From contig NZ_CP129613.1 of the NCBI RefSeq assembly GCF_030486405.1, positions 2,294,001-2,358,000 on the forward strand: DNA of 64,000 nucleotides. The letters are read 5' to 3'. Source of the stretch: Mycolicibacterium sp. HK-90. GTDB lineage: Bacteria > Actinomycetota > Actinomycetes > Mycobacteriales > Mycobacteriaceae. Below the pieces are notes generated by a model. The model worked only from the letters and a program-made list of their open reading frames with translations. It was not told the DNA's origin and did no database searches. Numbering within the stretch: the first letter of the stretch is position 1; every line of letters starts with the position of its first letter. Both the position numbers and the translations under genes were made by a program. Positions 3,695-23,762 of this stretch are shown here, one piece after another.

Positions 3695-5281
3695 GTGAGT
3701 CTTCCCGTTGTTTTGATTGCCGACAAGCTCGCGGAATCGACCGTCGCCGCCCTCGGTGACCAGGTAGAGGTCAGGTGGGTCGACGGTCCGGACCGCGAGA
3801 AGCTGCTCGCTGCCGTGCCGGAAGCCGACGCGCTGCTGGTGCGTTCCGCCACCACGGTGGACGCCGAGGTCATCGCCGCGGCCCCCAAACTCAAGATCGT
3901 CGCCCGCGCGGGCGTCGGCCTGGACAACGTCGACGTCGATGCCGCCACCGCCCGCGGGGTGCTCGTGGTCAACGCGCCGACCTCCAACATCCACAGCGCC
4001 GCCGAGCACGCCCTGGCGCTCCTGCTGGCCACCGCCCGGCAGATCCCCGCCGCCGATGCAACGCTGCGCGATCACACGTGGAAGCGATCGTCGTTCTCGG
4101 GTGTCGAGATCTTCGACAAGACCGTCGGCGTCGTCGGCCTGGGCCGTATCGGACAGCTGGTCGCCCAGCGCCTCGCCGCCTTCGGCGCACACATCGTGGC
4201 GTACGACCCATACGTCTCGCAGGCCCGCGCCGCCCAGCTCGGTATCGAATTGCTGCCGTTGGACGAACTGCTCGGCCGCGCCGACTTCATCTCGGTGCAC
4301 CTGCCCAAGACCAAGGAAACCGCCGGCCTGCTCGGCAAGGAGAACCTGGCCAGGACCAAGCCGGGCGTCATCATCGTCAACGCCGCCCGCGGCGGCCTGA
4401 TCGATGAGCAGGCCCTGGCCGACGCCATCACCAGCGGCCATGTGCGTGCCGCCGGTCTCGACGTCTTCTCGACCGAACCATGCACCGACAGCCCGCTGTT
4501 CGAGCTGCCCCAGGTCGTCGTGACCCCGCACCTGGGTGCCTCGACCGCCGAGGCGCAGGACCGTGCCGGTACCGATGTGGCCGCCAGCGTGAAGCTGGCC
4601 CTGGCCGGCGAATTCGTCCCGGACGCCGTCAACGTCGGCGGCGGAGCCGTCGGCGAAGAGGTGGCGCCCTGGCTGGATCTGGTGCGCAAGCTCGGGCTGC
4701 TGGCCGGGGCCCTGTCCGATGCGGCTCCGGTGTCGCTGTCGGTGCAGGCGCGTGGCGAGCTGGCCAGCGAAGACGTCGAGATCCTGAAGCTGTCGGCGCT
4801 GCGGGGGCTGTTCTCCGCGGTCGTCGACGAGCAGGTGACGTTCGTCAACGCCCCGACGTTGGCCGCCGACCGTGGCGTGTCCGCCGAGATCAGCACCGCC
4901 ACCGAGAGCCCCAACCACCGCAGCGTGGTGGATGTTCGCGTCGTGCACGCCGACGGCAGCGCGCTGAACGTCGCGGGCACCCTGTCCGGGCCGCAGCTGG
5001 TCGAGAAGATCGTCCAGATCAACGGGCGCAACTTCGATCTGCGGGCCGAGGGCTACAACCTGATCGTCCACTACAACGATCAGCCGGGCGCGCTCGGCAA
5101 GATCGGCACCCTGCTCGGCGGGGCCAACGTCAACATCCTCGCTGCACAGCTGAGCCAGGATGTCGACGGTGACAGCGCCATCGTGATGCTGCGGGTGGAT
5201 ACCGATGTGCCCGAGGATGTGCGTTCCGCGCTCGCCGCTGCGGTCGACGCGACGACGCTGGAAGTGGTCAACCTGTCATGA
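3695..5281 (+). CDS. serA: D-3-phosphoglycerate dehydrogenase
   Basis: A 528-residue type 1 enzyme that oxidises 3-phosphoglycerate to 3-phosphohydroxypyruvate with NAD+, the first step of serine synthesis. The NAD motif GLGRIG is at about 148-153. NAARGG holds the substrate Arg, FSTEP the catalytic Glu and PHLGAST the catalytic His. Then come an intervening allosteric domain (about 315-450) and a C-terminal ACT domain (from about 455, [14 protein letters not shown]) that senses serine. Length matches the mycobacterial form (528 aa in M. tuberculosis). GTG start follows a leaderless -10 box. The stop overlaps the leuB start by four bases (ATGA), so both are on one transcript. Confidence 0.97.
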
Positions 5282-6288
5282 AACTCGCTGTAATCGCCGG
5301 TGACGGCATCGGTCCGGAGGTCATCGCCGAGGCGCTGAAGGTGCTCGACGCGGTACTGCCCGGCGTGGACCGCACTGAGTACGACCTGGGTGCGCGGCGC
5401 TACCACGCGACCGGAGAGCTGCTCACCTCGGAGACCATCGAGGAACTGCGCGGCTACGACGCGATCCTGCTCGGCGCCATCGGCGATCCGTCGGTGCCCA
5501 GCGGTGTCCTGGAGCGCGGCCTGCTGCTCAAGCTGCGGTTCGCTCTCGATCACCACGTCAACCTGCGTCCGGGCCGGCTGTATCCCGGTGTCGAGAGCCC
5601 GCTTTCGGGTGTGACCGACATCGACTTCGTCGTCGTGCGCGAAGGCACCGAGGGGCCCTACACCGGAAACGGCGGCGCGCTGCGCGTCGGCACCCCGCAC
5701 GAGGTGGCCACCGAGGTCAGCGTGAACACCGCGTTCGGTGTCGAGCGTGTGGTGCGTGACGCGTTCGCGCGGGCGCAGTCCCGGCGCAAGCACCTGACCC
5801 TGGTGCACAAGACCAACGTGCTGACCTTCGCCGGCGGCCTGTGGGCCCGTGTGGTGGCCGAGGTCGGCAAGGAGTACCCGGATGTCGAGGTGGCCTACCA
5901 GCACATCGACGCCGCGACCATCCACATGGTCACCGACCCCGGCCGGTTCGACGTGATCGTCACCGACAACCTGTTCGGCGACATCATCACCGACCTGTCG
6001 GCGGCGGTGTGCGGTGGCATCGGGCTGGCCGCGAGCGGCAACATCGATGCGACCCGGACCAATCCGTCGATGTTCGAGCCGGTGCACGGCAGTGCGCCCG
6101 ACATCGCGGGGCAGGGGATCGCCGATCCGACCGCCGCCGTGATGAGCGTGGCGCTGCTGCTCGCCCACATCGGTGAGACCGACGCCGCCGCGCGCGTCGA
6201 CAAGGCCGTCAGTGAGCACCTGGCCACCCGCGGTAACGCGAAGCTGTCGACCAGCGAGGTCGGCGAGCGGATCCTGTCGCTGCTGTAG
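5278..6288 (+). CDS. leuB: 3-isopropylmalate dehydrogenase
   Basis: A 336-residue enzyme of leucine synthesis: NAD+-dependent oxidative decarboxylation of 3-isopropylmalate. [12 protein letters not shown], the catalytic Lys in VHKTNVL, the metal-binding Asp residues in [15 protein letters not shown] and the NAD loop [12 protein letters not shown] are all present. Translation is coupled to serA by a four-base overlap. Its substrate is made by leuCD, which lies 18 kb further on and is transcribed separately. A long palindrome follows the stop. Confidence 0.97.
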
Positions 6289-6296
6289 CTTTCGCG

Positions 6297-6348
6297 TCGA
6301 CTCTGCGCTGAGGGCTTAGGCACTTCTAGGCCCTCGCCGCAGAGTCGA
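6297..6348. terminator. Long interrupted palindrome after leuB
   Basis: TCGACTCTGCG (6297-6307) is the exact reverse complement of CGCAGAGTCGA (6338-6348). Inside it GAGGGC pairs with GCCCTC and TAG with CTA, giving one long stem with small bulges. It lies between convergent leuB and the SDR gene at 6383, so it is likely a bidirectional terminator. It lacks a T run. Confidence 0.7.
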
Positions 6349-6382
6349 TGACGGCTCACGCGTCGGGCTACTCAGCCCGCCG

Positions 6383-7147
6383 TCACATCGGGAACGAGGA
6401 CTGTCCGACGAACCCGAAATCGGCGACGAGGGCGTGTCCGCTGATGGTCGCCGCGGCAGGTGAGGCGAGGAACGTCAGATAACGGGCGATGTCCTCGGGT
6501 TCGTGGATCGGGTACCTGTCGCCGAGATCGGCATCGTCGGACAAACCGATGTCGTTCTTGGGCATTCGGGTGTTCACCACACTCGGGCACACGCAGTTCA
6601 CCCGGATGCCGTCGGCCCGCAGATCCACAGCCATGGCGTTGACCATCATGATCAGCGCGCCCTTGGACGCGCAGTACGGCACGTGCAGAGGTGAGGCGAC
6701 AAGCGCGGAATCCGAGGCGACGATCGTGACCGAGGCCTTCGGGCTGAGGCGCAGGAACGGGAGTGCATGTTTGACCGGCAGCCACTGGCCTTTCACGTTG
6801 ATGTCGAACATGCGGTCCCACTCGCCGGTGCTGATGTCCTCGATCGATCGGCCGTACAGGCCGGAGATACCGGCGCACAGCACCAATGAGTCGAGGCTGC
6901 CAAGTTCGTGGACGGTGGTGGCTACCGCCTCGGCCACCGACTCCTCGTCGCTCACATCTGCCTGTACGGCAATGACTTCGGCGCCTTGTGCGATGAGTTC
7001 CGCCGCAGTGGCCCGGGCGGATTCGATGTGGATATCGGCGACGGCGACGGCCGCTCCTTCGGCGGCCAGCGCCAGCGCCGTGCACCGTCCGATCCCCGTG
7101 CCGCCCCCGGTGACGAAGGCTACCGAGTCGCGCAGACCCGTATCCAT
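6383..7147 (-). CDS. Short-chain dehydrogenase/reductase (last gene of sugar operon)
   Basis: A 254-residue classical SDR. VTGGGTGIGR (about 13-22) is the nucleotide-binding TGxxxGIG motif, ADIH suggests NAD preference, CAGISG replaces NAG, and YCASK holds the catalytic Tyr and Lys with a Ser upstream (VASDSA). GGAG lies five bases before ATG. It is the promoter-distal gene of a leftward operon with an ABC sugar importer, so oxidation of the imported polyol or reduction of a sugar intermediate is the likely role. Substrate is not readable. The second SDR of the operon (12237) is only distantly similar, so the two probably act on different intermediates. Confidence 0.88.
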   Translation of the reverse strand: MDTGLRDSVAFVTGGGTGIGRCTALALAAEGAAVAVADIHIESARATAAELIAQGAEVIAVQADVSDEESVAEAVATTVHELGSLDSLVLCAGISGLYGRSIEDISTGEWDRMFDINVKGQWLPVKHALPFLRLSPKASVTIVASDSALVASPLHVPYCASKGALIMMVNAMAVDLRADGIRVNCVCPSVVNTRMPKNDIGLSDDADLGDRYPIHEPEDIARYLTFLASPAAATISGHALVADFGFVGQSSFPM

Positions 7148-7158
7148 GTGAGCTCCGT

Positions 7159-8097
7159 TCAGACAGTGGTCAGGTGGTCGAGGCGGGCACGCCAGAACCG
7201 CACGCTTTCGCGCAACTCGTCCAGGACCGTCTCGTCGGGGTACTCATTCGAATGGATGACCTCGAAGAACAGATGGACATCACCCGTCCAGCCGGCCAGC
7301 CGCGCCAGCACCGCATCCCGGTCGACGGTGCCGGAGGCATTGGCCGCCGCAGTGAACGGGCCGTGATGATCCGCCCCGACGGGTGACTGCTGAAGCTGAA
7401 CCACCGGGGTGTTGATCCACTCCTCGGTCAACCACGTCAATGGGTCGGCACTGGGCGTCCCGGGCGTCAGCGACGACGGGTGCCCCAGATCCAGGCACAG
7501 CCGCCACGGCACCGCGGTGCCCGCAAGTTCGGTCTCCATCGCGTGTGCCTCGTCGATACTGTGTCCGTACTCCCTTGTCACAGCCAGGTTTTCGAACTGC
7601 ATGTGGTCGAGTCCGGCGTCGGCGGCGGTCTCGGCGAGCCGTCGCATCTGGTCCAGTTCGGTGGCGATGAGAGTTTTTGCCAAGGTGGGATCGGCGGCCG
7701 CCGATACCGACAACGCACCGATGTGCCCGCCGAGTCCGGTCGCCCCGACCGCCGCGGTGAAGGCGATCATCTCCTGGTACCACTCGAACGCCGCGGCGCG
7801 GTCGAACGGGTCCTCGGAGAGCAACAGGGGGGAGGAGTAGGCGGCCAGACCGGTGAACACACTGTGGATGCTGATACCGAAATCGTCGGCCGCGGTGCGG
7901 ACCCGTTCCGCGTATCGCCGGATCGCGTCCCGGTTCAGGCCGAACGGCACCAGGTCCAAGCTGAGCTGGATGGTGTCGAGCCCCAGTTCCTCGGTGACGA
8001 TGCGGGCCCACGCCTCGGGTTGCGGCCACCGTTTGACCGCGAAACAGGTGTTGATGCCGAGTATCAGGTTGGGCCCGTCGGTGGATGTGGTTGTCAT
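7159..8097 (-). CDS. Sugar phosphate isomerase/epimerase-family TIM-barrel protein
   Basis: A 312-residue AP-endonuclease-2-like TIM barrel (xylose isomerase-like superfamily). LGINTCFAVKRWPQPEAW is the first strand. Acidic and His residues expected at the metal site lie in HMQFENLAV, LCLDLGHPSS and LFFEVIHSNEY. Members interconvert keto- and aldo-sugars or epimerise them. The start is ATG 8097, one base past the stop of the ATPase gene. An upstream in-frame start at 8175 is rejected because it would run inside that gene. Its position in an ABC-importer operon with SDRs and an FGGY kinase points to rearrangement of the imported carbohydrate. Confidence 0.85.
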   Translation of the reverse strand: MTTTSTDGPNLILGINTCFAVKRWPQPEAWARIVTEELGLDTIQLSLDLVPFGLNRDAIRRYAERVRTAADDFGISIHSVFTGLAAYSSPLLLSEDPFDRAAAFEWYQEMIAFTAAVGATGLGGHIGALSVSAAADPTLAKTLIATELDQMRRLAETAADAGLDHMQFENLAVTREYGHSIDEAHAMETELAGTAVPWRLCLDLGHPSSLTPGTPSADPLTWLTEEWINTPVVQLQQSPVGADHHGPFTAAANASGTVDRDAVLARLAGWTGDVHLFFEVIHSNEYPDETVLDELRESVRFWRARLDHLTTV

Positions 8098-8098
8098 C

Positions 8099-9151
8099 TC
8101 AGTTGATTCGCTTTCCCGTCGAGTGATCGAAGAAGTGTGCGCTGTCGGGCCGCACTTGCAGGCTGACCGCGGCACCGGGGGTGACCCCGCTGAGGCGAGA
8201 GACCTCGGCCACCGCCGTCAGCTCCACATCGCCGGTCGCGACGGTGACGATGGCGCGCGGTCCCAGCAGTTCGACCAGAGTCACGGTGGCGGTGGCTTCC
8301 GCCGCAGGGGTGAGCAGCAGGTCGTCCGGTCGGACGCCGAGTATGACGGGACCGGCGCTCGGCGCGGTCAGATCGAGGTGCAACCCGGATTCGGTTCGGA
8401 ATCCACCGGTTCCGTTGGATCCGGGGATCAAGTTCATCTTCGGAGACCCGACGAAAGCGGCGACGAAGGTGTCCGCCGGTTTCGAATACACCTCCAGCGG
8501 GGTGCCGGCCTGCGCCACGCTGCCTTCCCGCATCACGACCATGCGATCCGACAGTGTCATCGCCTCTTCTTGATCATGCGTGACGTAGAACGAGGTGATG
8601 CCCAGCCGGCGTTGGATGTGTAGTAGCTCGGTGCGGGTTTCCACCCGCAGTTTGGCGTCCAGATTGCTCAACGGTTCGTCGAACAAGAACACCGACGGCT
8701 CCCGGACGATGGCACGGGCGATCGCGACCCGTTGCTGCTGGCCACCGCTGAGGTCCTTGGGCCGCCGGTCGAGCAGGCTGCCGAGCCCGATCGACTCGGC
8801 GACCTCGCGGGCGCGTCGGTGAGCCTCGGCCTTCTTGACCTTCTTGGCGCGCAACGGGAAGGCGATGTTGCCCAGTACGTTCAGATGTGGATACAGCGCG
8901 TAGTTCTGGAACACCATCGCGATGTCGCGGTCTCTGGTGTCGACGTGCGTGACATCGCGCTCGCCGATGAAGATGTTGCCGGAACTGATCGGTTCCAGAC
9001 CGGCCAGCATGCGCAGGGACGTCGACTTCCCACACCCCGACGGGCCCACCAGGACCGTCATCGAACCGTCGGGCAGGTCGAGGTTGAGGTTGTCGACGAT
9101 GCGTAGGTGACCGTAGTCCTTGCACACATCGCGGAAGGTGATTGTTGCCAT
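8099..9151 (-). CDS. ABC transporter ATPase, MsmK/UgpC/MalK type
   Basis: A 350-residue ATPase energising the adjacent importer at the inner face of the membrane. Walker A is GPSGCGKST (about 37-45), the signature is LSGGQQQRVAIARA, Walker B is VFLFDEPLSNLD and the H-loop is YVTHDQEEAM. The C-terminal third is the TOBE/OB regulatory region typical of CUT1 sugar importers (NLIPG ... VILGVRPDD ... VRPDSAHFFD). GGAG stands five bases before ATG. Unlike many CUT1 loci, which borrow a shared ATPase, this one encodes its own. Confidence 0.95.
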   Translation of the reverse strand: MATITFRDVCKDYGHLRIVDNLNLDLPDGSMTVLVGPSGCGKSTSLRMLAGLEPISSGNIFIGERDVTHVDTRDRDIAMVFQNYALYPHLNVLGNIAFPLRAKKVKKAEAHRRAREVAESIGLGSLLDRRPKDLSGGQQQRVAIARAIVREPSVFLFDEPLSNLDAKLRVETRTELLHIQRRLGITSFYVTHDQEEAMTLSDRMVVMREGSVAQAGTPLEVYSKPADTFVAAFVGSPKMNLIPGSNGTGGFRTESGLHLDLTAPSAGPVILGVRPDDLLLTPAAEATATVTLVELLGPRAIVTVATGDVELTAVAEVSRLSGVTPGAAVSLQVRPDSAHFFDHSTGKRIN

Positions 9152-9176
9152 GTGATCTCCAAAATTGCCGAGGCGG

Positions 9177-9998
9177 CTAGAACTTGACGGCTCCGCCGCC
9201 CATGCCCTGGATCAGGCGTCGCTGCACGAAGAACGCCGCGATGATGACCGGAACGATCGAGATGATGATGGCGGCGCTCATCGAGCCGAGGTCGACGCCG
9301 CGGAACGTATTGAACGACGAGATAGCCACCGGCAGCAGCTGGTTGTTGTTCGGAGCCAGGATGAGCCCGTAGAACATGTCATTCCAGGACAGGATGAAGC
9401 CGAAGATCGCGGAGGCACCGATGCCCGGATAAACCTGGGGGATCATCACCTTGCGGAATGCGGCGAACCGGGTGAGTCCGTCGACGAGAGCTTGCTCCTC
9501 CAGGGACCGGGGAACCGCTTCCCACAGCCCGATCAGGAACCACGTGACGAACGGCAGCACGAAACTGATGTGGGCGAAGATGACCGGGATCAGCGTTCCG
9601 CTGAGATTCATCGCGTACCCGGCGGTGAGGAAGGGAAACACCAAGACCGCCGGCGGTAGCACCTGGGCGGCGAGCATGCCGAATCTCGTTGCCGAACCAC
9701 CGGTCTTGTAGCGGCTGATGGAGTAGGCGGCCATGCTGCCCACAGTGATGCTGACGCCCACCGTCACGAACGCGACGATGGCGCTCCGGATGACGGCGCT
9801 GACGATCGTGCTGTCGAGCACCTGGTTCCAGTTGTCCATCGACGGGGTGAACGCGATGAGCCACGGATCGTTGAGTTGTCCCGGCGTCTTGAAGCTGGCG
9901 AGCGCGATCCACGCCAACGGCAGGACGACGATGGCGACGCCGGCGAGGAGGAACCCGATGCGCAGCGCGCCGAAGGACTTGCGCCGAAAGTCACTCAT
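9177..9998 (-). CDS. Carbohydrate ABC transporter permease, MalG type
   Basis: A 273-residue membrane protein with six predicted hydrophobic segments, the first at about 15-37 (GFLLAGVAIVVLPLAWIAL). The cytoplasmic EAA loop that docks the ATPase is EEQALVDGLTRFAAFRKVMI. ATG 9998 overlaps the TGA of the partner permease (ATGA, 9995-9998), giving coupled synthesis of the two subunits. A longer frame to 10067 is rejected because it would run inside that gene. Substrate specificity lies with the binding protein at 10906. Confidence 0.94.
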   Translation of the reverse strand: MSDFRRKSFGALRIGFLLAGVAIVVLPLAWIALASFKTPGQLNDPWLIAFTPSMDNWNQVLDSTIVSAVIRSAIVAFVTVGVSITVGSMAAYSISRYKTGGSATRFGMLAAQVLPPAVLVFPFLTAGYAMNLSGTLIPVIFAHISFVLPFVTWFLIGLWEAVPRSLEEQALVDGLTRFAAFRKVMIPQVYPGIGASAIFGFILSWNDMFYGLILAPNNNQLLPVAISSFNTFRGVDLGSMSAAIIISIVPVIIAAFFVQRRLIQGMGGGAVKF

Positions 9999-10843
9999 GC
10001 TGTGGACTTCTCCATCCGGCGGTAGACCACGACGATGACGGCCAGCACGAATGCCAGCACAAGGCACGCCATGGCGCTCGCCTCACCGAGCCGGAAGAAC
10101 TGGATCCCGGTCTGGTACATCAGGTACTGGATGGTCTCCGTTTCGGTGCCGGGACCGCCTCGCGTGGTGGCATAGACGTATTCGAATACTTTCAGCGCAT
10201 CGAGCGCACGCAGCATGACCGCGACGGTCAGCACCGGAGACAGCAACGGCAGGGTGACCCGGAACAGGGTGTACAGACCGCTGGCCCCGTCCACCTTGGC
10301 GGCTTCGAGCGGTTGCTTGGGCATCGACTCCAGACCGGCGACCAACAGCAGCACCAGAAACGGAGTCCATTGCCACACATCGATGGCGATGAGCGTGAAC
10401 AGTGCCGAGCCGGAACCGAAGAAGTCGTGGTCGATACCGACCGTGTGTAATGCGCTGGGTATCACGCCGAGTTGGCTGTTGAGCAGGAACCGGAATACCA
10501 GTGCGACGGCGATCGGGGTGATGAACATCGGGATCAGCAGGACCGAGCGGGTCAGGTCCTTCATCCAACGCTGCCGCTGCAGCGCCAGTGCGATGAGCAG
10601 TGCGAGCACCAGTTCGGCAACCACCGCGATCACCACGTAGGTTGCCGTTACGCCCAGCGAGCCGATGAACTTTCCCTGAAACGCCTTGGTGTAGTTGTCG
10701 ACTCCGACGAATTGCGCGGGTCGCTGCGAGGTCAGCTTCTTGTCGACAAAGCTGAGATACACGGCGTACACCAACGGGAAACCGATGGCAACGGCGAAGA
10801 CCGTTGCGAACGGCGCCATCATGCCGTAGCGAAACCTTCTCAT
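9995..10843 (-). CDS. Carbohydrate ABC transporter permease, MalF type
   Basis: A 282-residue membrane subunit with six hydrophobic segments (first GMMAPFATVFAVAIGFPLVY). The EAA loop is LEAAKVDGASGLYTLFRVTL. It pairs with the 9177 permease to form the channel of a CUT1-type importer. A perfect 18-bp stem-loop lies between its ATG and the stop of the binding-protein gene. The ribosome-binding site is a weak AGAGAG run, consistent with lower expression than the binding protein. Confidence 0.94.
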   Translation of the reverse strand: MRRFRYGMMAPFATVFAVAIGFPLVYAVYLSFVDKKLTSQRPAQFVGVDNYTKAFQGKFIGSLGVTATYVVIAVVAELVLALLIALALQRQRWMKDLTRSVLLIPMFITPIAVALVFRFLLNSQLGVIPSALHTVGIDHDFFGSGSALFTLIAIDVWQWTPFLVLLLVAGLESMPKQPLEAAKVDGASGLYTLFRVTLPLLSPVLTVAVMLRALDALKVFEYVYATTRGGPGTETETIQYLMYQTGIQFFRLGEASAMACLVLAFVLAVIVVVYRRMEKSTA

Positions 10844-10858
10844 TGTGCTCTCTCTCGG

Positions 10859-10903
10859 CGGTTTCCGCGGAGCGCTGGAGGGGGGAGCGCTCCGCGGAAA
10901 CCG
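10859..10903. repeat. Perfect 18-bp stem-loop between binding-protein and permease genes
   Basis: CGGTTTCCGCGGAGCGCT (10859-10876) and its exact reverse complement (10886-10903) flank a nine-base loop. In the leftward mRNA this hairpin lies two bases after the binding-protein stop codon and 15 bases before the first permease ATG. There is no T run. As in malE-malF-type intergenic regions, it may protect the upstream message or partly terminate transcription so that binding protein exceeds permease. Confidence 0.8.
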
Positions 10904-10905
10904 GG

Positions 10906-12204
10906 TCAGCGTCCCGTGATCTGGTCGGCCGCAGCCTGCGCGTCGGCCAGTGCCTGATCGATGGACTTGGCGCCGATCACCGCTTCATTGAGCTGGGTGC
11001 CGACCTCCTGCACCATCTGTTCGGCGTTGGGCCCCTGCGCGAACGGGACGGTGTTCTTGAGAATCTCGTCGACCGCGGCGAAGTAGCTCTCACCGTTGCC
11101 CGACTTGCGGACCTCGGGGTCTGCGACCGTCGAGATCCGGGTGGGCGCACCGCCGTTTATGACCCGCTGCTTGTCGGTGTCCTTGTCGGTGATCCAGGAG
11201 ATGAACGCCCAGGCGGCGTCGGAGTCCTTGGAGTTGGCCGGGATCGCCCAGGACCAGACGCCCAGTGCACCGCGACCGCCGGGCATCGGTGCCAGCTTGA
11301 ACTTGCCGGCCAGCTCGCCGGATTCGGGCGAGTTCAGGCTCGACGTCAGCCAGTTGTATCCGACGATGGAGGCCGATCCGCCGGAGGACAACGACCGGAT
11401 GGTCTCGTCCTGTGCCCAGTTGGAGCTGTTGGGCGGTGAGGCGGACTTCAGGGTGTCGATGTAGACCTGCAGCGCCTTGTGGGCGTCCGGGGTGTCGATC
11501 GTCGGATTGCCGTCCTTGTCGAACATCGAACCCCCGGCCGCGGCATACCAGCTCGACCATTCCTCCAGGATCTTGTAGCCGCGCTGCGGGCTGTGGGCGA
11601 TGCCGGCGTGTTGGGGCGTCGTCAGCTTGTTGACGGTCGTCACCAGTTCGTCGAGGGTCGTCGGCACCGGCAGGCCCGCCTGCTGTAGCAGATCGTCGCG
11701 GTAGATGTAGCCCTGCGCGTAGTTGTACATCGGGATGCCGTAAGTGGATCCGTCGATCTCGTTGACCCCGCGTAGCGCCGGGTAGAAGTCGTCGTAGTCG
11801 AGCTTGCTCGCCGTCTCGACCCGGCTGTCCAGTGGCGCCAGGAATCCGGCGTTGACGAAGTCGTCGGTCCACGGGTTGTCGATCATGATCAGGTCGTACG
11901 TGCCCTGCGGAGCCTGGAACGACGCCACGAGCTTGTCGCGCATCGAGTCGTAGGCAAGCTTCTCGATGTCGACATTGATGTTCGGATACGCCTTCTTGAA
12001 GCCGTCGAGCAGCGATTCGACCGCCTCGGTGTCGTGTTCGTCCTCCATGAGGATCTTCACGGTGCCGGCATGGTCGGCGGGAATGTCACCTGCGCCGCTT
12101 CCACTTTCGGTTGCCGGGCCGGAACTCGAACAGCCCGCGAGCGCCAATGTGGTCGCCCCTAACAGCGCGGCGACGGAGGACAACCACTTTCTTGTTCCTG
12201 CCAT
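10906..12204 (-). CDS. Sugar-binding lipoprotein of ABC importer
   Basis: A 432-residue extracellular solute-binding protein (family 1). The N-terminus MAGTRKWLSSVAALLGATT ends in the lipobox LALAGC, so the mature protein is anchored to the outer face of the membrane by a lipid on Cys. DLIMIDNPWTDDF and TYGIPMYNYAQG are typical ligand-cleft segments of sugar binders. GGAAGG precedes ATG 12204; longer frames run antisense or into the neighbour and lack the signal peptide directly at the start. It defines the substrate of the island, which cannot be predicted from family membership alone. Confidence 0.94.
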   Translation of the reverse strand: MAGTRKWLSSVAALLGATTLALAGCSSSGPATESGSGAGDIPADHAGTVKILMEDEHDTEAVESLLDGFKKAYPNINVDIEKLAYDSMRDKLVASFQAPQGTYDLIMIDNPWTDDFVNAGFLAPLDSRVETASKLDYDDFYPALRGVNEIDGSTYGIPMYNYAQGYIYRDDLLQQAGLPVPTTLDELVTTVNKLTTPQHAGIAHSPQRGYKILEEWSSWYAAAGGSMFDKDGNPTIDTPDAHKALQVYIDTLKSASPPNSSNWAQDETIRSLSSGGSASIVGYNWLTSSLNSPESGELAGKFKLAPMPGGRGALGVWSWAIPANSKDSDAAWAFISWITDKDTDKQRVINGGAPTRISTVADPEVRKSGNGESYFAAVDEILKNTVPFAQGPNAEQMVQEVGTQLNEAVIGAKSIDQALADAQAAADQITGR

Positions 12205-12236
12205 ATCCCTTCCAATCCTGTTGATTCGGTGGGTGA

Positions 12237-13010
12237 TCAATCCATGAAGGCGCCGCCGTTGACGGCAAGTGCCTCGCCGGTGATGAACCGGGCGTCCTCG
12301 GAAAGCAGGAAGGTCAGCGCCTTGGCGATGTCTTCGGGCTGCTCGACACGTCCGAGCGGGGTGTCGTCGATCCACATCTGTTTCACCGCTTCGGCAGTCG
12401 TGCCCCGCAATGAGGCCTCCCACTCGAGTTCGCGTTCCTGCATCGGCGTGGCGACATAGCCGGGGCAGATGCTGTTGACGGTGATGCCGTGCTCGGCCAG
12501 CTCGTAGGCCATCGACTGGGTCAGTCCGATGACGCCGAATTTGGATGCGATGTAGTCGCTGAGGAACGGGACCCGGCCCTGCTTGCCGCCCATCGAGGCG
12601 GTGTTGACGATTGTGCCCTTGCTCTTGGTGCGGACCATTGCCCGGGCCGCGGCCTGGCCGCAGATGAACACGCCCTTGAGGTTGATGTCGAAGGTCTTCT
12701 CGACCCGATCCAGCGGCATGTCCAGGAAGCGCTCCATGAACGAGATGCCGGCGTTGCTCACCCAGGCGTCCAGGCCGAGGCGGTCGGCGACGTCATCGGC
12801 CACCTTGGCCGCGCCGGCCGGGTCGGTCACGTCGAGCTGCAGGTGTTCGTGGTGCTGGCCGGCCGTGGTATCGAGTTGTTCGGCACAGGCTTTGGCGGCC
12901 TGCTCGTCGACGTCGGTCACGACGACCTGCCAGCCCCGGCGGGCCAATTCGGTCACCATGGCCTTACCGATGCCGGATCCTGCGCCCGTCACCACAACTG
13001 TCTTCGTCAA
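12237..13010 (-). CDS. Short-chain dehydrogenase/reductase (second gene of sugar operon)
   Basis: A 257-residue classical SDR, probably a polyol or sugar dehydrogenase. VVVTGAGSGIGKAMV at the very N-terminus is the cofactor motif, VTDVD gives an NAD-type acidic residue, NAGIS is the structural motif and YIASK holds Tyr and Lys. It ends with TGEALAVNGGAFMD. I choose the TTG start at 13010 because AGGAAG stands right before it and the protein then begins MTKTVVVTG. A GTG at 13055 overlapping the deoR stop (GTGA) is the alternative and adds 15 residues. Lying directly behind the repressor gene, it is a likely first catabolic step. Confidence 0.88.
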   Translation of the reverse strand: MTKTVVVTGAGSGIGKAMVTELARRGWQVVVTDVDEQAAKACAEQLDTTAGQHHEHLQLDVTDPAGAAKVADDVADRLGLDAWVSNAGISFMERFLDMPLDRVEKTFDINLKGVFICGQAAARAMVRTKSKGTIVNTASMGGKQGRVPFLSDYIASKFGVIGLTQSMAYELAEHGITVNSICPGYVATPMQERELEWEASLRGTTAEAVKQMWIDDTPLGRVEQPEDIAKALTFLLSEDARFITGEALAVNGGAFMD

Positions 13011-13051
13011 TGCTCTTCCTTCTCTTACTGTGATCGATTGGGCCGTCGAGA

Positions 13052-13822
13052 TCACTCGTGTGCGACCCGCACGTCGATGCCTTGCTGTCGGGCGGCCTCC
13101 AGCACCGGGCCATCGTGCGGACCGTCCGTCACGATCGTGTTCACCGCGCTCAGTGGCGCGATGTTGACCAACTGGACGCGTCCGAGCTTGCTGGAATCGA
13201 CAGCGAGGATGACGCGGTCGGCGGACTCCATGGCCGCGCGTTTCACGTCGCTTTCCTCGCTGTGGTAATCGGTGAGTCCGCGCTTGGCATCGACACCGGC
13301 GACACCCATGACATAGGTGTCGCAGTTGTAGCGCCGGTAGGTTGCCTGGGCGTCGGAGCCGATGAGGCTGAGCTCGCCCGGTCTCATTCGGCCGCCGGTG
13401 AGGAAGACGGTGGTGTTGGGTTCGTCGACGAGTTCAAGTGCGGCAAGCACGCTCGGCGTGATCACGGTCAATCCGAGTCCGCGGCCACGGATTTGGTGCG
13501 CCACGGCCAGCGCGGTGCTGCCACTGTCGATGATGACGGTCTCGTGTGGTTCCAGCAGTTCGACGGCAGCGGCGGCGATATGCGCCTTCTCGGCGGTCGC
13601 CGACTCCACCCGGGTGCCGAATGCGGGCTCCTCGGACTTGTGCGAGTAGGCAATCGCACCGCCACGCACCCGGCGTACCGCACCTTGGGCTTCCAGAACA
13701 TCGATGTCGCGCCGAATCGTCATCTCCGAGACCTCGAACATCTCGGCCAACGAGGCGAAGTCCACTTCGCCGTCAGTCCGCAGCCGCTCCTCGATCAGGG
13801 CTCTTCGCTCTTCGACTGACAT
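13052..13822 (-). CDS. DeoR-family transcriptional regulator of the sugar island
   Basis: A 256-residue repressor. Residues about 1-57 form the DeoR winged helix-turn-helix (LAEMFEVSEMTIRRDIDVLE, then VRRVRGGAI). The rest is the sugar-phosphate-sensing domain related to ribose-5-phosphate isomerase (DSGSTALAVAHQI, TVFLTGGRM). It is the first gene of the leftward operon and is divergent from the IMPase-kinase-aldolase operon. Repeated GTGAAT-n-GTT-n-ACAG boxes lie in front of both arms, so autoregulation and release by a phosphorylated intermediate of the pathway are likely. Confidence 0.93.
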   Translation of the reverse strand: MSVEERRALIEERLRTDGEVDFASLAEMFEVSEMTIRRDIDVLEAQGAVRRVRGGAIAYSHKSEEPAFGTRVESATAEKAHIAAAAVELLEPHETVIIDSGSTALAVAHQIRGRGLGLTVITPSVLAALELVDEPNTTVFLTGGRMRPGELSLIGSDAQATYRRYNCDTYVMGVAGVDAKRGLTDYHSEESDVKRAAMESADRVILAVDSSKLGRVQLVNIAPLSAVNTIVTDGPHDGPVLEAARQQGIDVRVAHE

Positions 13823-13844
13823 CGGCTACCCCCTGTGACAATGT

Positions 13845-13910
13845 GTGAATAGTTGACAGTTTTCACTGTGATGTTTCAACTCACGGACGAATGTCGTTAA
13901 TGTTTAACAT
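13845..13910. promoter_or_regulatory. Divergent operator region of the sugar island
   Basis: The gap 13823-13942 holds GTGAATAGTTGACAG (13845-13859) followed by TTTTCAC, which together make an imperfect palindrome. It also holds ATGTTTAACAT (13900-13910), a perfect palindrome with the related half-site GTTTAACA. The first box recurs with 13 of 15 bases identical at 14734 before the kinase gene. These are candidate binding sites of the adjacent DeoR repressor. The stretch is unusually AT-rich for the window. Confidence 0.6.
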
Positions 13911-13942
13911 AACCGGGTGTGAGATGGGAAGAGGTAACAGAG

Positions 13943-14737
13943 ATGGATTCTGAGCAGTGCGGCAGCGCGGCTGGGCCGGCCGCCGAACTCGCTGACGTGG
14001 CGTTGGAGGCGGCCCGTGCGGGTGCGGCGGTCCTGCGTTCACGTCCGCGGGGGAGCGCCAGCGTGACGGTCAAGGGTGAGCGGGGTGATCTCGTCACCGA
14101 CGTGGACGTCGCCGCCGAGCGCGCGGTGCGTGCCGTCTTGGGCAACCGCAGGCCGAATGACCACGTCACGGGCGAGGAGCTTCCCGGTACGGCCCCGGAC
14201 GGAGCGCGCGTCCGGTGGTCCATCGATCCGCTGGACGGTACGACGAACTTCACCAGGGGGATCCCGTATTACGCGACGTCGGTGGGTGCGGTCTGTATCC
14301 GCACCGGGCAGTGGCTCGCGGGCGCGGTCGATGCGCCCGAGCTCGGCAAGACGTACTACGCGTATCGGGGTGGCGGGGCGTGGCTGGCCGACGGCACGGG
14401 GGTCTACCGGCTGACCGGGCCTGCCGCCGGTGTCGACGGTGCCGCGCGCTTGCTCGGTATGGGCTACGCCTACTCGGCCGATGTCCGCCTGGCGCAGTGC
14501 GGCATGACCGCCGACATGATGGCCGGATACACCGACGCCCGGGCCCTCGGGTCGGCCGCTCTCGCGATCTGCGCCGTCGCTGAAGGTGCGCTGGACGGCT
14601 ACGTCGAGAGCCATCTCGGCGAGTACGACTGGGCGGCCGCGGCCCTGGTGGCCGAGGAGGCCGGGTTGGCGGTGCGGCGACCTGCGACGCCGGCCGACGA
14701 GCTCCGGGTCACCGTTCAGGAGCAGGAATTGACGTGA
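13943..14737 (+). CDS. Inositol-monophosphatase-family phosphatase
   Basis: A 264-residue Mg2+-dependent phosphatase of the IMPase/FBPase fold. GEELPG carries the metal-binding Glu, WSIDPLDGTTNF is the WxxDPxDGTxNF metal site, and EYDWAAAALVAEEAG carries the distal Asp. ATG 13943 is chosen over a GTG at 13919 because GAGG lies about nine bases before it. It opens the rightward operon of the island, between the repressor and the kinase. A sugar phosphatase role (removing a dead-end or excess phosphorylated intermediate) fits, but inositol or histidinol phosphate remain possible substrates. Confidence 0.88.
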   Translation: MDSEQCGSAAGPAAELADVALEAARAGAAVLRSRPRGSASVTVKGERGDLVTDVDVAAERAVRAVLGNRRPNDHVTGEELPGTAPDGARVRWSIDPLDGTTNFTRGIPYYATSVGAVCIRTGQWLAGAVDAPELGKTYYAYRGGGAWLADGTGVYRLTGPAAGVDGAARLLGMGYAYSADVRLAQCGMTADMMAGYTDARALGSAALAICAVAEGALDGYVESHLGEYDWAAAALVAEEAGLAVRRPATPADELRVTVQEQELT

Positions 14738-14748
14738 ATTGTTAACAG
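14734..14748. promoter_or_regulatory. Second copy of the island operator box before the kinase gene
   Basis: GTGAATTGTTAACAG matches the box at 13845 (GTGAATAGTTGACAG) at 13 of 15 positions and contains the palindrome GTTAAC. It overlaps the IMPase stop codon and is followed by GGTTGATAGTTCTTCACAC, which resembles the opposite half of the first site. An internal promoter under the same repressor is likely, since 92 bases separate the two genes. Confidence 0.55.
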
Positions 14749-14829
14749 AAGGTTGATAGTTCTTCACACTCTCGGCTAGTGTCAGCGACACGTTGTGCTG
14801 GCATCGGGACTCTGGACAGGAGACAGTTC

Positions 14830-16311
14830 TTGCGGGGCACCTATCTGATCGGCGTCGATATCGGCACCACCGGAACCAAAACGGTTCTGCTGCACGAAAC
14901 TGCCGGCATCGTGGCGCAGGCAACGTTGAGCTCGCCGATCTTCTCGGACGGACCGGCATATGCCGAGGCGGATGCCTCGGCTTGGGTTGCCAACGCGGTA
15001 GAGGGAATTCGGCAGGTTCTTGCCGAATCGGGGATCGACCCGGCGATGGTGGCTGCCGTCTCGGCGACCGGCATGGTTCCCGCGGTGGTCTGCCTCGACG
15101 CCGACCTGAAGCCGGTGCGCCGGCCCATCCTGCAGAACGATGCCAGGGCAACCCGGGAAATCGAAGAGCTGTCGGCGGTGATCGACGGCGCGGACATGTT
15201 GTCCCGCACCGGATCCGCGCTGACCCAACAGTCCGTGGCGCCGACGGTGCGTTGGTTGCAGCGCAACGAGCCCGAATGTTGGTCGGCCACGCGCTATCTG
15301 GTCGGGTCGTACGACTATGTGCTGATCGCGTTGGGGGCGCCGCCACACGTCGAGCAGAATTGGGCACTGGAGTCCGGTCTCTACACCCTGGACGGAAAGC
15401 ACTTCGATCCGGCGCTCGCGGCCGTCGGCCTGCCTTCCTCGTCGCTGTGCGAGATGTACCGGCCCGGCACCCGGGTCGGCACGATCAGTGCATCGATGGC
15501 CGAAACCACCGGTCTGCCGGCTGATGTCGCGTTGGTGGTCGGCGGCGCCGACCATGTGTTGTCGGCCTACGCGGCCGGCGTCGACACAGCCGGTGACTGG
15601 TTGATCAAGTTGGGCGGTGCCGGTGACATCCTCACCGCCTGTGCCGATCCCATCGTCGACGCGCGCCTGTATCTCGATGCGCATCCCCGGCAGGGCACCT
15701 GGCTGCCCAACGGCTGCATGGCCACCAGCGGCAGTCTCATCCGGTGGTTCCAGACCCTCATCGGCGGAACGCCGTTGACCGATCTCGACGCCGAGGCCGC
15801 CGGGCGCCGACCCGCTGCGGTGTTGTGTCTGCCCTACTTCCTGGGTGAGAAGTCGCCGATCCACGATCCGCAGTTGCGTGGCGCGTTCATCGGCCTCGAG
15901 CTGGCCCACACCGGGGCGGACATGTATCGCTCGGTGCTCGAGGCGATCGCCTTCGGGTTCCGGCACAACGCCGAAGTCATGCGATCGGCCGGAATCACGC
16001 TGTCTCGGGCCAGGGTGACGAACGGTGGCAGCAAGTCCACCCTGTGGAAGCAGATCCACGCAGACGTGCTCGGCACCGAGTTGGCGCCCGTGCGTGACCA
16101 TCCCGGAGCCTCGCTGGGCGCCGCGATCCAGGCGGGTGTGGGGGCCGGTGTGCTCGGTCTCGACGATGCCGCGAGATTCCTGCAGTTCGATGCACCCGTG
16201 GTGCCCGACCGTGAGCGGTCGGCGATCTATGAAGAGGCCTACCAGCTGTGGCGGCAGGCCGGCGACGCGCTGGCGCCCATTTCGCACGGGCTGACACGGA
16301 GGCCGCGATGA
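14830..16311 (+). CDS. FGGY-family carbohydrate kinase (xylulokinase-like)
   Basis: A 493-residue ATP-dependent sugar or polyol kinase. IGVDIGTTGTKTVLLHE is the N-terminal phosphate-1 motif, VVGGADHVLSAYAAG carries the likely catalytic Asp, and TNGGSKSTLWKQIHADVLG is the C-terminal FGGY signature with the adenosine motif GASLGAAIQAG after it. The start is TTG 14830, preceded by AGGAG at seven bases spacing; the frame upstream to 14779 has no such site. The stop overlaps the aldolase start (ATGA). It most likely phosphorylates a ketose made by the SDRs. It resembles xylulokinases most, but substrate cannot be fixed. Confidence 0.9.
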   Translation: MRGTYLIGVDIGTTGTKTVLLHETAGIVAQATLSSPIFSDGPAYAEADASAWVANAVEGIRQVLAESGIDPAMVAAVSATGMVPAVVCLDADLKPVRRPILQNDARATREIEELSAVIDGADMLSRTGSALTQQSVAPTVRWLQRNEPECWSATRYLVGSYDYVLIALGAPPHVEQNWALESGLYTLDGKHFDPALAAVGLPSSSLCEMYRPGTRVGTISASMAETTGLPADVALVVGGADHVLSAYAAGVDTAGDWLIKLGGAGDILTACADPIVDARLYLDAHPRQGTWLPNGCMATSGSLIRWFQTLIGGTPLTDLDAEAAGRRPAAVLCLPYFLGEKSPIHDPQLRGAFIGLELAHTGADMYRSVLEAIAFGFRHNAEVMRSAGITLSRARVTNGGSKSTLWKQIHADVLGTELAPVRDHPGASLGAAIQAGVGAGVLGLDDAARFLQFDAPVVPDRERSAIYEEAYQLWRQAGDALAPISHGLTRRPR

Positions 16312-17030
16312 AGATCCGGCACGACTACAAGGTGGCGGTGGCCGACGGCGGTTGGCGAATGGTCGATCTCGGTCTCACCACCGGTCTGGATTCGGGCGAC
16401 ATCACCGTGTTCGACCGGGAGAACGACGTCGTCTACGCGCTGCCGGCGCCATCGGATCGGCTGCCGATCCGGAGCTGGAAAGACGTCCGCCCGGAAGATG
16501 TCGCAGTCGTCGACCCCGATGGCAACACCCTGCCGGAATCACTCACCGACCCGACGGTCGAACTGCCGATGCATCTCGCGATCTATGCGGCCCGGCCCGA
16601 TGTCAACGCCATCGTGCACACCCATGCCGAGGATTCGCAGGTGTTCGCGGCAGCGGAGCGAGATATTCCCACCGCCACCATCGACTCCTACACCCGTGCC
16701 GGATTCGGTCCGATCCGATGTGGAAAATTCGGCGTCGTCGCCTCGAAAGAACTGGGCGACAACATGGTCGAGGTCCTGGCCGGCAGCAGCAAGGCGGCCC
16801 TGATGGCCCGGCACGGTGCGGTGGCACTGGGGCCGGATCTGGCCGATGCAATGTTCACGGCGACGGTCATCGAGAAAGCCGCGCGCCAGGCCATGAAGGT
16901 CGCGTCGCTCGGGGCGACACCCGAACAGCTCACCCTGCACCACATTTTCGACCACGATCTTGCCCGCGACATCGAGGAGGGGCGCGTCCACCTCGACACC
17001 CAGACAGTCACGATTCAGCGCTTGGCCTGA
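16308..17030 (+). CDS. Class II aldolase/adducin-family protein (fuculose-phosphate-aldolase-like)
   Basis: A 240-residue Zn2+ enzyme expected to split a ketose 1-phosphate into dihydroxyacetone phosphate and an aldehyde. The zinc His pair is in IVHTHAED and the third His in MARHGAVALG. GLDSGDIT stands where the phosphate-binding SGN-type loop is in fuculose-phosphate aldolase, and VELPMHLAIY supplies the active-site Glu. The start ATG 16308 overlaps the kinase stop. The direct coupling to an FGGY kinase is the strongest hint at a kinase-then-aldolase pathway. A decarboxylase or epimerase role, also known in this family, cannot be excluded. Confidence 0.88.
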   Translation: MKIRHDYKVAVADGGWRMVDLGLTTGLDSGDITVFDRENDVVYALPAPSDRLPIRSWKDVRPEDVAVVDPDGNTLPESLTDPTVELPMHLAIYAARPDVNAIVHTHAEDSQVFAAAERDIPTATIDSYTRAGFGPIRCGKFGVVASKELGDNMVEVLAGSSKAALMARHGAVALGPDLADAMFTATVIEKAARQAMKVASLGATPEQLTLHHIFDHDLARDIEEGRVHLDTQTVTIQRLA

Positions 17031-17063
17031 GGGACAAGAGGAACAAGAGGAGATAGATAAACC

Positions 17064-17873
17064 ATGCAATGGCTTGACGACGTCTTTGGTGTGCAGAAAC
17101 CGGTGATCGCCATGCTGCACCTCGACGCCTTGCCGGGCGATCCGTCCTTTGACACGGCGGCCGGTATGAGTGCGGTGGTCGACAACGCACGGCGCGATCT
17201 CGATGCACTCCAGTCCGGAGGCGTTGACGCGGTGATGTTCTCCAACGAGTTCAGCCTGCCGTATCTGACCAAGACCGAGCCGATCACCGCGATCTCGATG
17301 GCTCGCGTCATCGGCGAGCTCCTCGACGAAGTCCGAGTGCCGTTCGGCGTCAACGTGCTGTGGGACGGGGTGGCATCGATAGACCTCGCTGCCGCGACCG
17401 GTGCGAAGTTCGTGCGGGAGATCTTCACCGGCGCCTACGGCAGCGATTTCGGCTTGTGGAACACCAACGTCGGGCAGGCGGCGCGGCACCGGCGGCGCGT
17501 CGATGCGGACGGTGTCCGTCTGTTGTTCAACGTGGTCCCGGAGGCGACGGCGTATCTCGGTGACCGGGATCTGGCTGACATCACCCGTTCCACGGTGTTC
17601 AACGCCAAGCCCGATGCGCTGGTCGTGTCGGGGCTGACCGCCGGTGCGCCCACCGACACGTCGGCTCTGTCCACCGTCAAGAACAATGCCGGCGATGTCC
17701 CGGTGTTCGTCAACACCGGAATGCGGGTGGAGACCGCGGAGGCGCAGCTGAGCATCGCCGACGGGGCCGTGGTCGGCACCGCATTCAAGAAGGACGGGGT
17801 GTTCGAGAACCGCGCCGACAGTGAGCGGGTAGAGAAGCTGATGGCGGTGGTCAAGAACTTCCGTCAGAACTGA
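17064..17873 (+). CDS. BtpA/SgcQ-family TIM-barrel protein
   Basis: A 269-residue soluble protein of the BtpA family, named after a cyanobacterial photosystem I biogenesis factor and also found as SgcQ in an E. coli sugar cluster. The sequence shows a (beta/alpha)8 pattern: PVIAMLHLDALPG at the start, DAVMFSNEF, FGVNVLWDG, ADGVRLLFNV, PDALVVSGLTAG, VPVFVNTGM and GAVVGTAFKKDG, the last like a phosphate-binding loop. A photosystem role is impossible here. As last gene of the kinase-aldolase operon it probably acts on a phosphorylated intermediate. AGGAG precedes the ATG. Biochemical function is unknown. Confidence 0.85.
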   Translation: MQWLDDVFGVQKPVIAMLHLDALPGDPSFDTAAGMSAVVDNARRDLDALQSGGVDAVMFSNEFSLPYLTKTEPITAISMARVIGELLDEVRVPFGVNVLWDGVASIDLAAATGAKFVREIFTGAYGSDFGLWNTNVGQAARHRRRVDADGVRLLFNVVPEATAYLGDRDLADITRSTVFNAKPDALVVSGLTAGAPTDTSALSTVKNNAGDVPVFVNTGMRVETAEAQLSIADGAVVGTAFKKDGVFENRADSERVEKLMAVVKNFRQN

Positions 17874-18013: not shown

Positions 18014-18625
18014 ATGGGCGTCATCGACATCGAACTGTTCGCCACCCTCGACCTCGTCGCGCAGGCGCCGGGCGGCCCGGACGAGGACCCCGAGGGATTC
18101 GCATTCGGTGGCTGGCAGGCGCCACTGATCGACGACGTTTCGGGTGCACAGGTCGGCGCTGCATACGAGGGCACCGATGCTCTCCTGCTCGGGCGCCGGA
18201 CGTACGACATCTTCGCCGCCTACTGGCCACACCAGACGGATGACTTCGGCACGCTGTTCAACAGCATTCCGAAGTACGTGGCGTCACGCGGCACACCTGA
18301 TCTCGCGTGGGCGGGCTCCACTCTGCTCGGCCCCGATCTGGCCGGGGCGGTGCGCGAGGTACGTGACCGGCATCAGAAGGTCAAGGTCGTCGGAAGCCTG
18401 GACCTGGTGCAGACCCTGTTGCGCGAGAAGCTGTTCGACCACATCGACCTGTGGGTGCACCCGATCATGCTGGGCGTGGGAAAGAAAGTATTCGACGGTG
18501 GCGCGGTGCCTACCAACGTCACACTGCTGCAACCGCCGGTCGCCAGCCCGAACGGGATCGTGTACCTGCGCTACGGTCTCGCCGCCGGCATACCGGGAAC
18601 CGGCGATATGAGCGATCACTCATAG
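18014..18625 (+). CDS. Dihydrofolate-reductase/RibD C-terminal-family protein
   Basis: A 203-residue protein of the RibD_C/DHFR-like fold (start MGVIDIELFATLDLVAQAPGG). ALLLGRRTYDIFAAYW is the family's NADPH-binding GRxTY segment, VKVVGSLDLVQTLL replaces the G-G-x-L/V motif, and DLWVHPIMLGVGKKVFDGG is the conserved C-terminal part. Such stand-alone proteins are common in actinobacteria and presumed to be NADPH-dependent reductases, without a known substrate. GGGAG precedes the ATG. It is separated from the island by a hairpin and is convergent with the MFS gene. Confidence 0.85.
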   Translation: MGVIDIELFATLDLVAQAPGGPDEDPEGFAFGGWQAPLIDDVSGAQVGAAYEGTDALLLGRRTYDIFAAYWPHQTDDFGTLFNSIPKYVASRGTPDLAWAGSTLLGPDLAGAVREVRDRHQKVKVVGSLDLVQTLLREKLFDHIDLWVHPIMLGVGKKVFDGGAVPTNVTLLQPPVASPNGIVYLRYGLAAGIPGTGDMSDHS

Positions 18626-23539: not shown

Positions 23540-23611
23540 TGGGGTATGGTGTAATTGGCAACACAGCTGATTCTGGTTCAGCCATTCTAGGTTCGAGTCC
23601 TGGTACCCCAG
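23540..23611 (+). tRNA. tRNA-Gln (anticodon CUG)
   Basis: The 72-base cloverleaf is complete: acceptor TGGGGTA/TACCCCA, D-arm GTGT...ACAC, anticodon arm GCTGA-TTCTGGT-TCAGC with CTG at positions 34-36, and T-arm CTAGG-TTCGAGT-CCTGG. A CCA end follows the discriminator G (23612-23614). It reads CAG codons. It lies in one unit with tRNA-Glu. Confidence 0.96.
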
Positions 23612-23682
23612 CCATCCGGACTGGTTCAGACGGATTAGGTGAGTACGACCGCCTGAGCTATGCTGACCATCCGGAAGTTCTA

Positions 23683-23755: not shown

Positions 23756-23762
23756 CAGAGGT

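Follow-up and report, generated by a model that had tools for sequence, protein, structure and literature searches.

The ribitol and D-arabinitol (rbt/dal) operons of Klebsiella join a polyol dehydrogenase of the short-chain dehydrogenase/reductase (SDR) type to an FGGY-family pentulokinase, a dedicated transporter and a repressor. An SDR, an FGGY kinase, a transporter and a regulator also belong to an island of twelve genes at positions 6383-17873 of a 64,000-nucleotide stretch of the fast-growing mycobacterium Mycolicibacterium sp. HK-90 (contig NZ_CP129613.1, positions 2,294,001 to 2,358,000; the whole stretch is called the window below). Unlike rbt/dal, which feed directly into the pentose phosphate pathway, the island adds a protein of the BtpA/SgcQ family, a phosphatase, a TIM-barrel protein and a class II aldolase, and its kinase passes the cut-off of no characterised pentulokinase model. 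The island is an elaborated version of a widespread operon, not a categorically new system, and is, on balance, probably a DeoR-controlled pair of operons for the import and catabolism of a short polyol, with one or more pentitols as the likeliest substrates.

Other described systems share different parts of this equipment. The erythritol (ery) pathway of Brucella and rhizobia likewise has an FGGY kinase, an EryC-like TIM barrel, an ATP-binding cassette (ABC) importer and DeoR-type control, but an EryB-type dehydrogenase, RpiB and TpiB are not among the twelve genes, and an erythritol operon was rejected on that ground. The threitol and erythritol pathways of M. smegmatis, within the same genus, also import polyols via an ABC transporter, but their kinases are of the dihydroxyacetone-kinase type, whereas that of the island is an FGGY protein, which likewise led to the rejection of a threitol route of this type. 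The sgc region of Escherichia coli and Salmonella has in common with the island a BtpA protein (62-63% identical to SgcQ), a DeoR regulator and sugar transport genes, but possesses phosphotransferase system (PTS) import, an RPE-like protein and an M42 peptidase, and neither an SDR nor an FGGY kinase was found there. In fucose and rhamnose catabolism (FucK/RhaB with FucA/RhaD) an FGGY kinase is, as here, followed by a class II aldolase with Glu, HxH and His, but the island has no aldose isomerase and its aldolase stays under the NCBIfam cut-off in all 25 families listed. Finally, SmoS of Sinorhizobium meliloti is presumably an SDR, and we take the smo importer to be of the CUT1 type. The smoEFGK-smoS genes provide a broad-substrate polyol ABC importer together with a polyol dehydrogenase, a pairing found again in the island, whereas the terms BtpA and FGGY are absent from that paper (PMC10433430).

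Results

A recurrent core module

The core, which consists of a CUT1 ABC importer, one of the two SDRs of the island (SDRb, as distinct from SDRa), the FGGY kinase, BtpA and usually a DeoR regulator, with a phosphatase as an optional member, is a recurrent module and accounts for two thirds of the island. The island holds it in full, as DeoR, FGGY kinase, SDRb, solute-binding protein (SBP), two permeases, ATPase and BtpA stand together. In 198 genomes of the genus the kinase was matched at E<=1e-60 in 54 and BtpA was present in 52; five genomes with a kinase match of just 31-33% (G074, G381, G403, G416, G435) were excluded as core carriers, leaving 49 Mycolicibacterium genomes, about a quarter, with the kinase at >=59% identity, every one of which also possesses BtpA. 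Kinase and BtpA genes are 0.9-7.6 kb apart in all 48 genomes having both on one contig. Twelve of the 49 core loci were read: eleven contain importer, SDRb, kinase and BtpA genes together, and the twelfth is cut by a contig end. SDRb relatives at 66-76% identity occur in 11, DeoR in 11 (the exception is L113) and an inositol-monophosphatase-family phosphatase (IMPase) in five. Loci L116 and L117 belong to genomes already represented by L010 and L011. Across the phylum, BtpA at E<=1e-40 is uncommon, with six positive genomes out of 296: that of the window and five whose BtpA is 40-44% identical.

The module extends beyond the phylum. Plasmid loci were chosen from matches to BtpA, kinase, SBP or the TIM-barrel protein, and of the 12 with BtpA that were read nine also encode an FGGY kinase (Thermus thermophilus, two; R. 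leguminosarum, two; Rhizobium sp. 11515TR, ACO-34A, Shinella, Labrenzia and Salipiger). Within the stretches examined, an SBP accompanies the pair in 9/9, an SDRb-like SDR, DeoR and ATPase in 8/9 each; SDRb and DeoR were not found in the stretch examined of L035, nor ATPase and permease in that of L034. In Shinella, Labrenzia, Salipiger and ACO-34A the kinase has a HAD phosphatase as its neighbour, suggesting a dephosphorylation step that recurs without being obligatory. In all six loci from metagenome-assembled genomes (MAGs), DeoR, BtpA, kinase and SDRb occur together, and in trees the kinase and SDRb of the genus cluster with those of the MAG modules. The importers of these MAG loci are not uniform. 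In L015-L018 an importer with a tandem pair of ATPases is encoded upstream of the module (in L018 the profiles indicate SBP_bac_5 and the oligopeptide type), and CUT1-like genes adjoin the module in L014 and lie about 6 kb downstream in L018. L015-L017 have alignable open reading frames (ORFs), profile assignments of GH20 and importer genes being made on L018 only.

Four plasmid modules of Salipiger and Rhizobium (L033, L035, L029, L034) stand beside some of the genes for allophanate hydrolase, isochorismatase-like hydrolases, amidase, asparaginase, amidohydrolase and gamma-glutamyltransferase, a hint that the substrate at these loci contains nitrogen.

Organisation and regulation of the island

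An original prediction, made for this locus from its sequence, had described twelve genes in two divergent blocks with their own DeoR regulator, and this description is borne out: 12 intact ORFs are open at the coordinates below, eight on the minus and four on the plus strand with divergence at 13823-13942, and all family labels were verified by profile (two SDRs, AP_endonuc_2 TIM barrel, UgpC/MalK-type ATPase, two permeases, SBP_bac_1 lipoprotein, DeoR, Inositol_P, FGGY_N/C, Aldolase_II and BtpA).

6383..7147, minus strand: SDRa, short-chain dehydrogenase, clade-specific addition (PF13561/PF00106; TGGGTGIG and YCASK in the translation)
7159..8106, minus strand: TIM-barrel sugar isomerase/epimerase-like protein (TIM protein), EryC-like, clade-specific addition (PF01261; matches to PDB 4k3z and 3qxb)
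8099..9151, minus strand: ABC importer ATPase, UgpC/MalK type (NF008653 430.9 bits, cut-off 432)
9177..9998, minus strand: ABC permease 2, MalG/GlcU type (NCBIfam matches; start read from the sequence, overlapping the permease 1 stop)
9995..10843, minus strand: ABC permease 1, UgpA type (PF00528, NF007852)
10906..12204, minus strand: solute-binding lipoprotein (SBP) with lipobox LAGC (SBP_bac_1 profile)
12237..13010, minus strand: SDRb, short-chain dehydrogenase, core-module member (TGAGSGIG and YIASK motifs; genus relatives)
13052..13822, minus strand: DeoR-family regulator (PF00455, PF08220)
13823..13942, no strand: divergent promoter/operator region with ATGTTTAACAT at 13900-13910, near-invariant in four species
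13943..14737, plus strand: IMPase (PF00459; GEE, DPLDGTTNF and YDWAA in the translation)
14738..14829, no strand: spacer with TGTTAACA at 14740-14747, candidate second operator ahead of the kinase, conserved in four species
14830..16311, plus strand: FGGY-family sugar kinase, core-module member (PF00370/PF02782; XylB model 275.7 bits; nearest PDB entry 3ifr)
16308..17030, plus strand: class II (FucA-like) aldolase, clade-specific addition (PF00596; E, HTH and H aligned to FucA-family chains)
17064..17873, plus strand: BtpA/SgcQ-family protein, core-module member (TIGR00259 299.8 bits; 62-63% to SgcQ)
18014-18625: small gene between the island and a major facilitator superfamily (MFS) gene; a search of NCBIfam profiles gave no match

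The start of IMPase was set to ATG 13943 because in M. peregrinum a single-base insertion shortly before this codon interrupts the longer frame; GEE, DPLDGTTNF and YDWAA are the metal motifs of this family. The kinase starts at TTG 14830, preceded in four species by a conserved GGAGA-containing stretch, and the SBP at 12204, giving 432 amino acids, while the starts of permease 2 (9998) and SDRb (TTG 13010) were both read from the sequence. In a pattern search, TGTT-(0 or 1 base)-AACA occurs in all four islands only in the almost invariant divergent spacer and at 14740, and these palindromes are candidate DeoR sites.

Chromosomal site

M. peregrinum, Mycobacterium sp. URHD0025 and M. houstonense have the full gene set in the same order, with leuB on one side and the small gene and then the MFS gene on the other; their island proteins are 87-99% identical, and this conservation in three relatives implies that the island is not due to chance. 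In M. peregrinum the distance between the small gene and the MFS gene is larger by 1.4 kb, and aldolase relatives are named in the protein search from M. septicum as well. The leuB site was checked in 18 of the 56 genus genomes having a leuB match, and in none of these 18 other Mycolicibacterium genomes does an island gene come between leuB and the landmark that follows: in 17 the MFS orthologue (window 18629) faces leuB at 0-2.1 kb, and the equivalent of the small gene comes after leuB in the remaining one. Some of the 18 hold the core operon at another site. The island is therefore located between leuB and the small gene in one species group. Its description as self-contained is supported. 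As the G+C content resembles that of the surroundings (62-68% in 1-kb steps), composition shows no sign of recent foreign origin.

The neighbouring leuB (window 5278-6288) is 98% identical to its M. houstonense counterpart and only 86% to that of M. peregrinum, while the island genes are 87-99% identical to both; leuB may have been exchanged by recombination. A pair of tRNA genes, tRNA-Gln(ctg) and tRNA-Glu(ctc), is located at window 23540-23756.

Clade-specific additions

Within the genus, the second SDR (SDRa), the EryC-like TIM barrel and the rare class II aldolase are peculiar to the window's clade, and none of the three was found in any of the 12 genus core loci read. Close orthologues of the aldolase (>=94%) are present in just three of the 198 genus genomes; matches at E<=1e-20 occur in 33, of which 30 at 31-36% identity were not counted as orthologues, and among 394 sampled genomes of the class E<=1e-30 was reached in the window's own genome only. 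The protein search provided 117 relatives at E<=1e-15, and six exact coincidences of contig size between the first 25 BtpA and the first 35 aldolase matches are an indirect sign that aldolase and BtpA share contigs elsewhere. FucA-type class II aldolases use a catalytic Glu, the two His of an HxH motif and a third His as zinc ligand, and the island aldolase keeps these residues, since the Glu of vELpmHL, HTH and the His of ARHG align to the corresponding columns of FucA-family chains; against the fuculose-phosphate aldolase model it scores 85.4 bits, under the cut-off of 264. Its gene is placed between kinase and BtpA with a 4-base overlap with the kinase, and SDRa and the TIM gene close the importer block.

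The TIM protein was found at E<=1e-30 in two of 296 genomes. It matches PDB 4k3z (E 6e-27 over 9-310), deposited as 'D-erythrulose 4-phosphate dehydrogenase' and, we assume, Brucella EryC, as well as 3qxb (E 1e-23), and is 26-36% identical to the plasmid relatives listed. The nearest readable of these (35%) belongs to an operon with a zinc alcohol dehydrogenase, a CUT1 ABC importer, a SorC-like regulator and two FGGY genes, one encoding a kinase that comes closest to the pentulose-kinase model (394 bits against a cut-off of 409), the other xylulokinase-like and split over two frames, and a relative at 28% adjoins triose-phosphate isomerase and RpiB. On plasmids of Amycolatopsis and Streptosporangium (L031, L032), TIM relatives at 33-36% are found in 7-deazaguanine clusters with an RPE-like protein, a HAD hydrolase and an inositol monophosphatase, which possibly make an unusual sugar.

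Binding protein, dehydrogenases and kinase

The best relative of the SBP by sequence as well as by structure is the EFI protein 5iai, whose ligand we take to be ribitol; the entry 4rya, described by its name as sorbitol-binding, comes second in the Foldseek comparison and third in that of sequences. A relative of the SBP at 54% identity occurs in M. smegmatis mc2 155. In each SDR the cofactor and YxxxK motifs are intact and strand two is followed by an Asp, as is typical of NAD enzymes, and SDRb also matches L-rhamnose 1-dehydrogenase, below cut-off. The kinase reaches 275.7 bits against the XylB model, under the NCBIfam cut-off of 380.25. A Met-His motif contacts xylulose in E. coli XylB; the XylB column GQMHG reads TGMVP in the kinase and TGMLP in 3ifr, its nearest PDB entry. 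A standard xylitol/xylulose operon was rejected, as the kinase stays under the XylB cut-off and does not have the Met-His motif, with the contrary point that a 2011 family study places 3IFR among the xylulose kinases (PMC3245297).

The BtpA protein

The BtpA protein scores above the curated cut-off of its family (TIGR00259 299.8 bits against a cut-off of 153.4; PF03437 E 3e-84), and the family is large, at least 6646 of 8000 scored candidates being related at E<=1e-20. What is known of BtpA comes mainly from cyanobacteria, in the form of a photosystem I phenotype, and literature searches yielded no reaction for BtpA/SgcQ. The structure model is a TIM barrel (predicted local distance difference test, pLDDT, 88.9), whose best matches are barrels that catalyse very different reactions, lie within 2 Z units of one another and bind phosphorylated ligands. 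A comparison of 27 sequences (that of the window and 26 with 36-82% identity to it) shows 57 invariant positions, among them N61, E62, D101, R118, E119, N156, E160 and N217; several of the 57 are acidic or amide residues located where strands of the model end.

Two further BtpA proteins, 64-65% identical to that of the window, are encoded on Sinorhizobium and Phyllobacterium plasmids (L022, L028) in a different operon with a PIG-L deacetylase, a Gfo/Idh oxidoreductase, a sugar phosphate isomerase/epimerase and a CUT1-like ABC importer.

Discussion

Taken jointly, the evidence points to pentitol-type chemistry, motifs and neighbours being the only basis for assigning dehydrogenase and pentulokinase roles in a pentitol operon. 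The SDRs would oxidise the imported polyol to ketoses, which, or whose phosphates, the TIM protein would interconvert; the kinase would phosphorylate the ketose, at O1 if the aldolase acts downstream, and the aldolase would split the phosphorylated ketose into dihydroxyacetone phosphate and a 2- or 3-carbon aldehyde. BtpA would catalyse an additional reaction on a phosphosugar that the ancestral pathway required, and DeoR probably senses a phosphorylated intermediate, acting at the two conserved sites. The weakest step is that of IMPase, which might remove a dead-end phosphate or carry out a required dephosphorylation. In evolutionary terms, the island would have derived from the widespread core of ABC importer, SDRb, kinase, BtpA and DeoR, with optional phosphatase, by gaining SDRa, the TIM protein and the aldolase. 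The sequence predicted for this locus at the outset, import, oxidation or isomerisation, kinase and aldol cleavage, is thereby well supported as an outline by the intact motifs, the best match of the SBP to an EFI protein whose group includes a sorbitol binder, and the TIM relatives in erythritol- and pentitol-type operons. The accompanying claim that the combination matches no defined pathway stood only in part: neither a characterised operon nor any description of a BtpA/FGGY/SDR/ABC operon was found in the literature searches, but BtpA, FGGY kinase, SDR and CUT1 ABC importer form a recurrent module, with or without phosphatase.

A number of observations weigh against the pentitol reading or against a fixed partnership within the core. 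CUT1 binding proteins mostly bind oligosaccharides, and by VIA-align 4rya is just at rank 25, with maltose/trehalose binders directly after 5iai. Val for the His of XylB argues against a plain xylulose route. In L018 a GH20 hexosaminidase and a GNAT-like protein (5718-8326) lie between the oligopeptide-type ABC importer and the DeoR-BtpA-kinase-SDR module, and since such an importer and GH20 adjoin the core there, its substrate may be glycosylated. Furthermore, BtpA occurs without the kinase in three of its 52 genus genomes, and an FGGY kinase is missing from the three plasmid loci whose BtpA is closest to the window (62-65%). In the tree, for which the program warned of long branches meeting, mycobacterial BtpA groups with SgcQ and with the rhizobial BtpAs of the deacetylase/Gfo-Idh operon devoid of an FGGY kinase. 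BtpA thus seems, from its phylogeny, to have changed partners and not to be strictly co-travelling with kinase and SDR, and such a change of partners is a better fit to a step common to several sugar routes than to a kinase-specific protein. We tentatively consider it quite possible that BtpA/SgcQ catalyses a new reaction on sugar phosphates, either epimerising a ketose phosphate or splitting it by aldol cleavage, in a polyol pathway widespread from Mycolicibacterium to Thermus and rhizobia, with the class II aldolase of the clade as a second exit from the same intermediate.

Alternatively, the substrate might be an aldose, a deoxy-sugar or a small glycoside, with the SDRs as sugar 1-dehydrogenases or carbonyl reductases and kinase and aldolase acting as in the fucose, rhamnose and 5-deoxyribose routes. 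An FGGY kinase followed by a FucA-like aldolase is the logic of fucose and rhamnose catabolism, models for fuculose-phosphate and ribulose-1-phosphate aldolases are among the best of the aldolase, all far under cut-off, and the sub-cut-off match of SDRb to L-rhamnose 1-dehydrogenase, the GH20 gene beside the core in L018 and the maltose/trehalose binders as close structural neighbours of the SBP fit in as well. Yet an isomerase of FucI/RhaA type is not among the twelve genes, the SBP matches best the presumed ribitol binder 5iai, and the aldolase is an addition absent from 12/12 other genus loci read, which makes an aldose or glycoside rather unlikely. A similarly doubtful possibility is that SDRa, TIM protein and aldolase constitute a second, separate pathway that shares only importer and regulator with the core. 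Their absence from the other genus loci read and the kinase's own conserved upstream spacer would agree with such a division; points against it are the position of the aldolase between kinase and BtpA with its 4-base overlap, SDRa and TIM terminating the importer block and the contig-size coincidences suggesting that aldolase and BtpA share contigs elsewhere.

That the core processes the sugar moiety of a nitrogenous compound of nucleoside-like or amide-linked type, the sugar being imported or released before SDR, kinase and BtpA act, we regard as improbable. The copies in R. leguminosarum, Salipiger and Rhizobium ACO-34A adjoin some nitrogen-compound hydrolase genes, and in a nitrogen-starvation study of M. 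smegmatis the sugar-binding protein MSMEG_0505, possibly an orthologue of the SBP, has a value of 4.72 in a transcriptome table (PMC4222082). Such neighbours are, however, absent inside the window island and from the two annotated Thermus loci, and plasmid neighbourhoods are possibly accidental.

The significance of the locus is twofold. The tight link of BtpA to one kinase and one dehydrogenase in soil mycobacteria offers a small operon for finding the BtpA reaction. In the M. fortuitum group, where mannitol, inositol and sorbitol tests differ between M. houstonense and M. fortuitum (PMC4021744), the island is a candidate gene set behind sugar-alcohol tests that differ among species.

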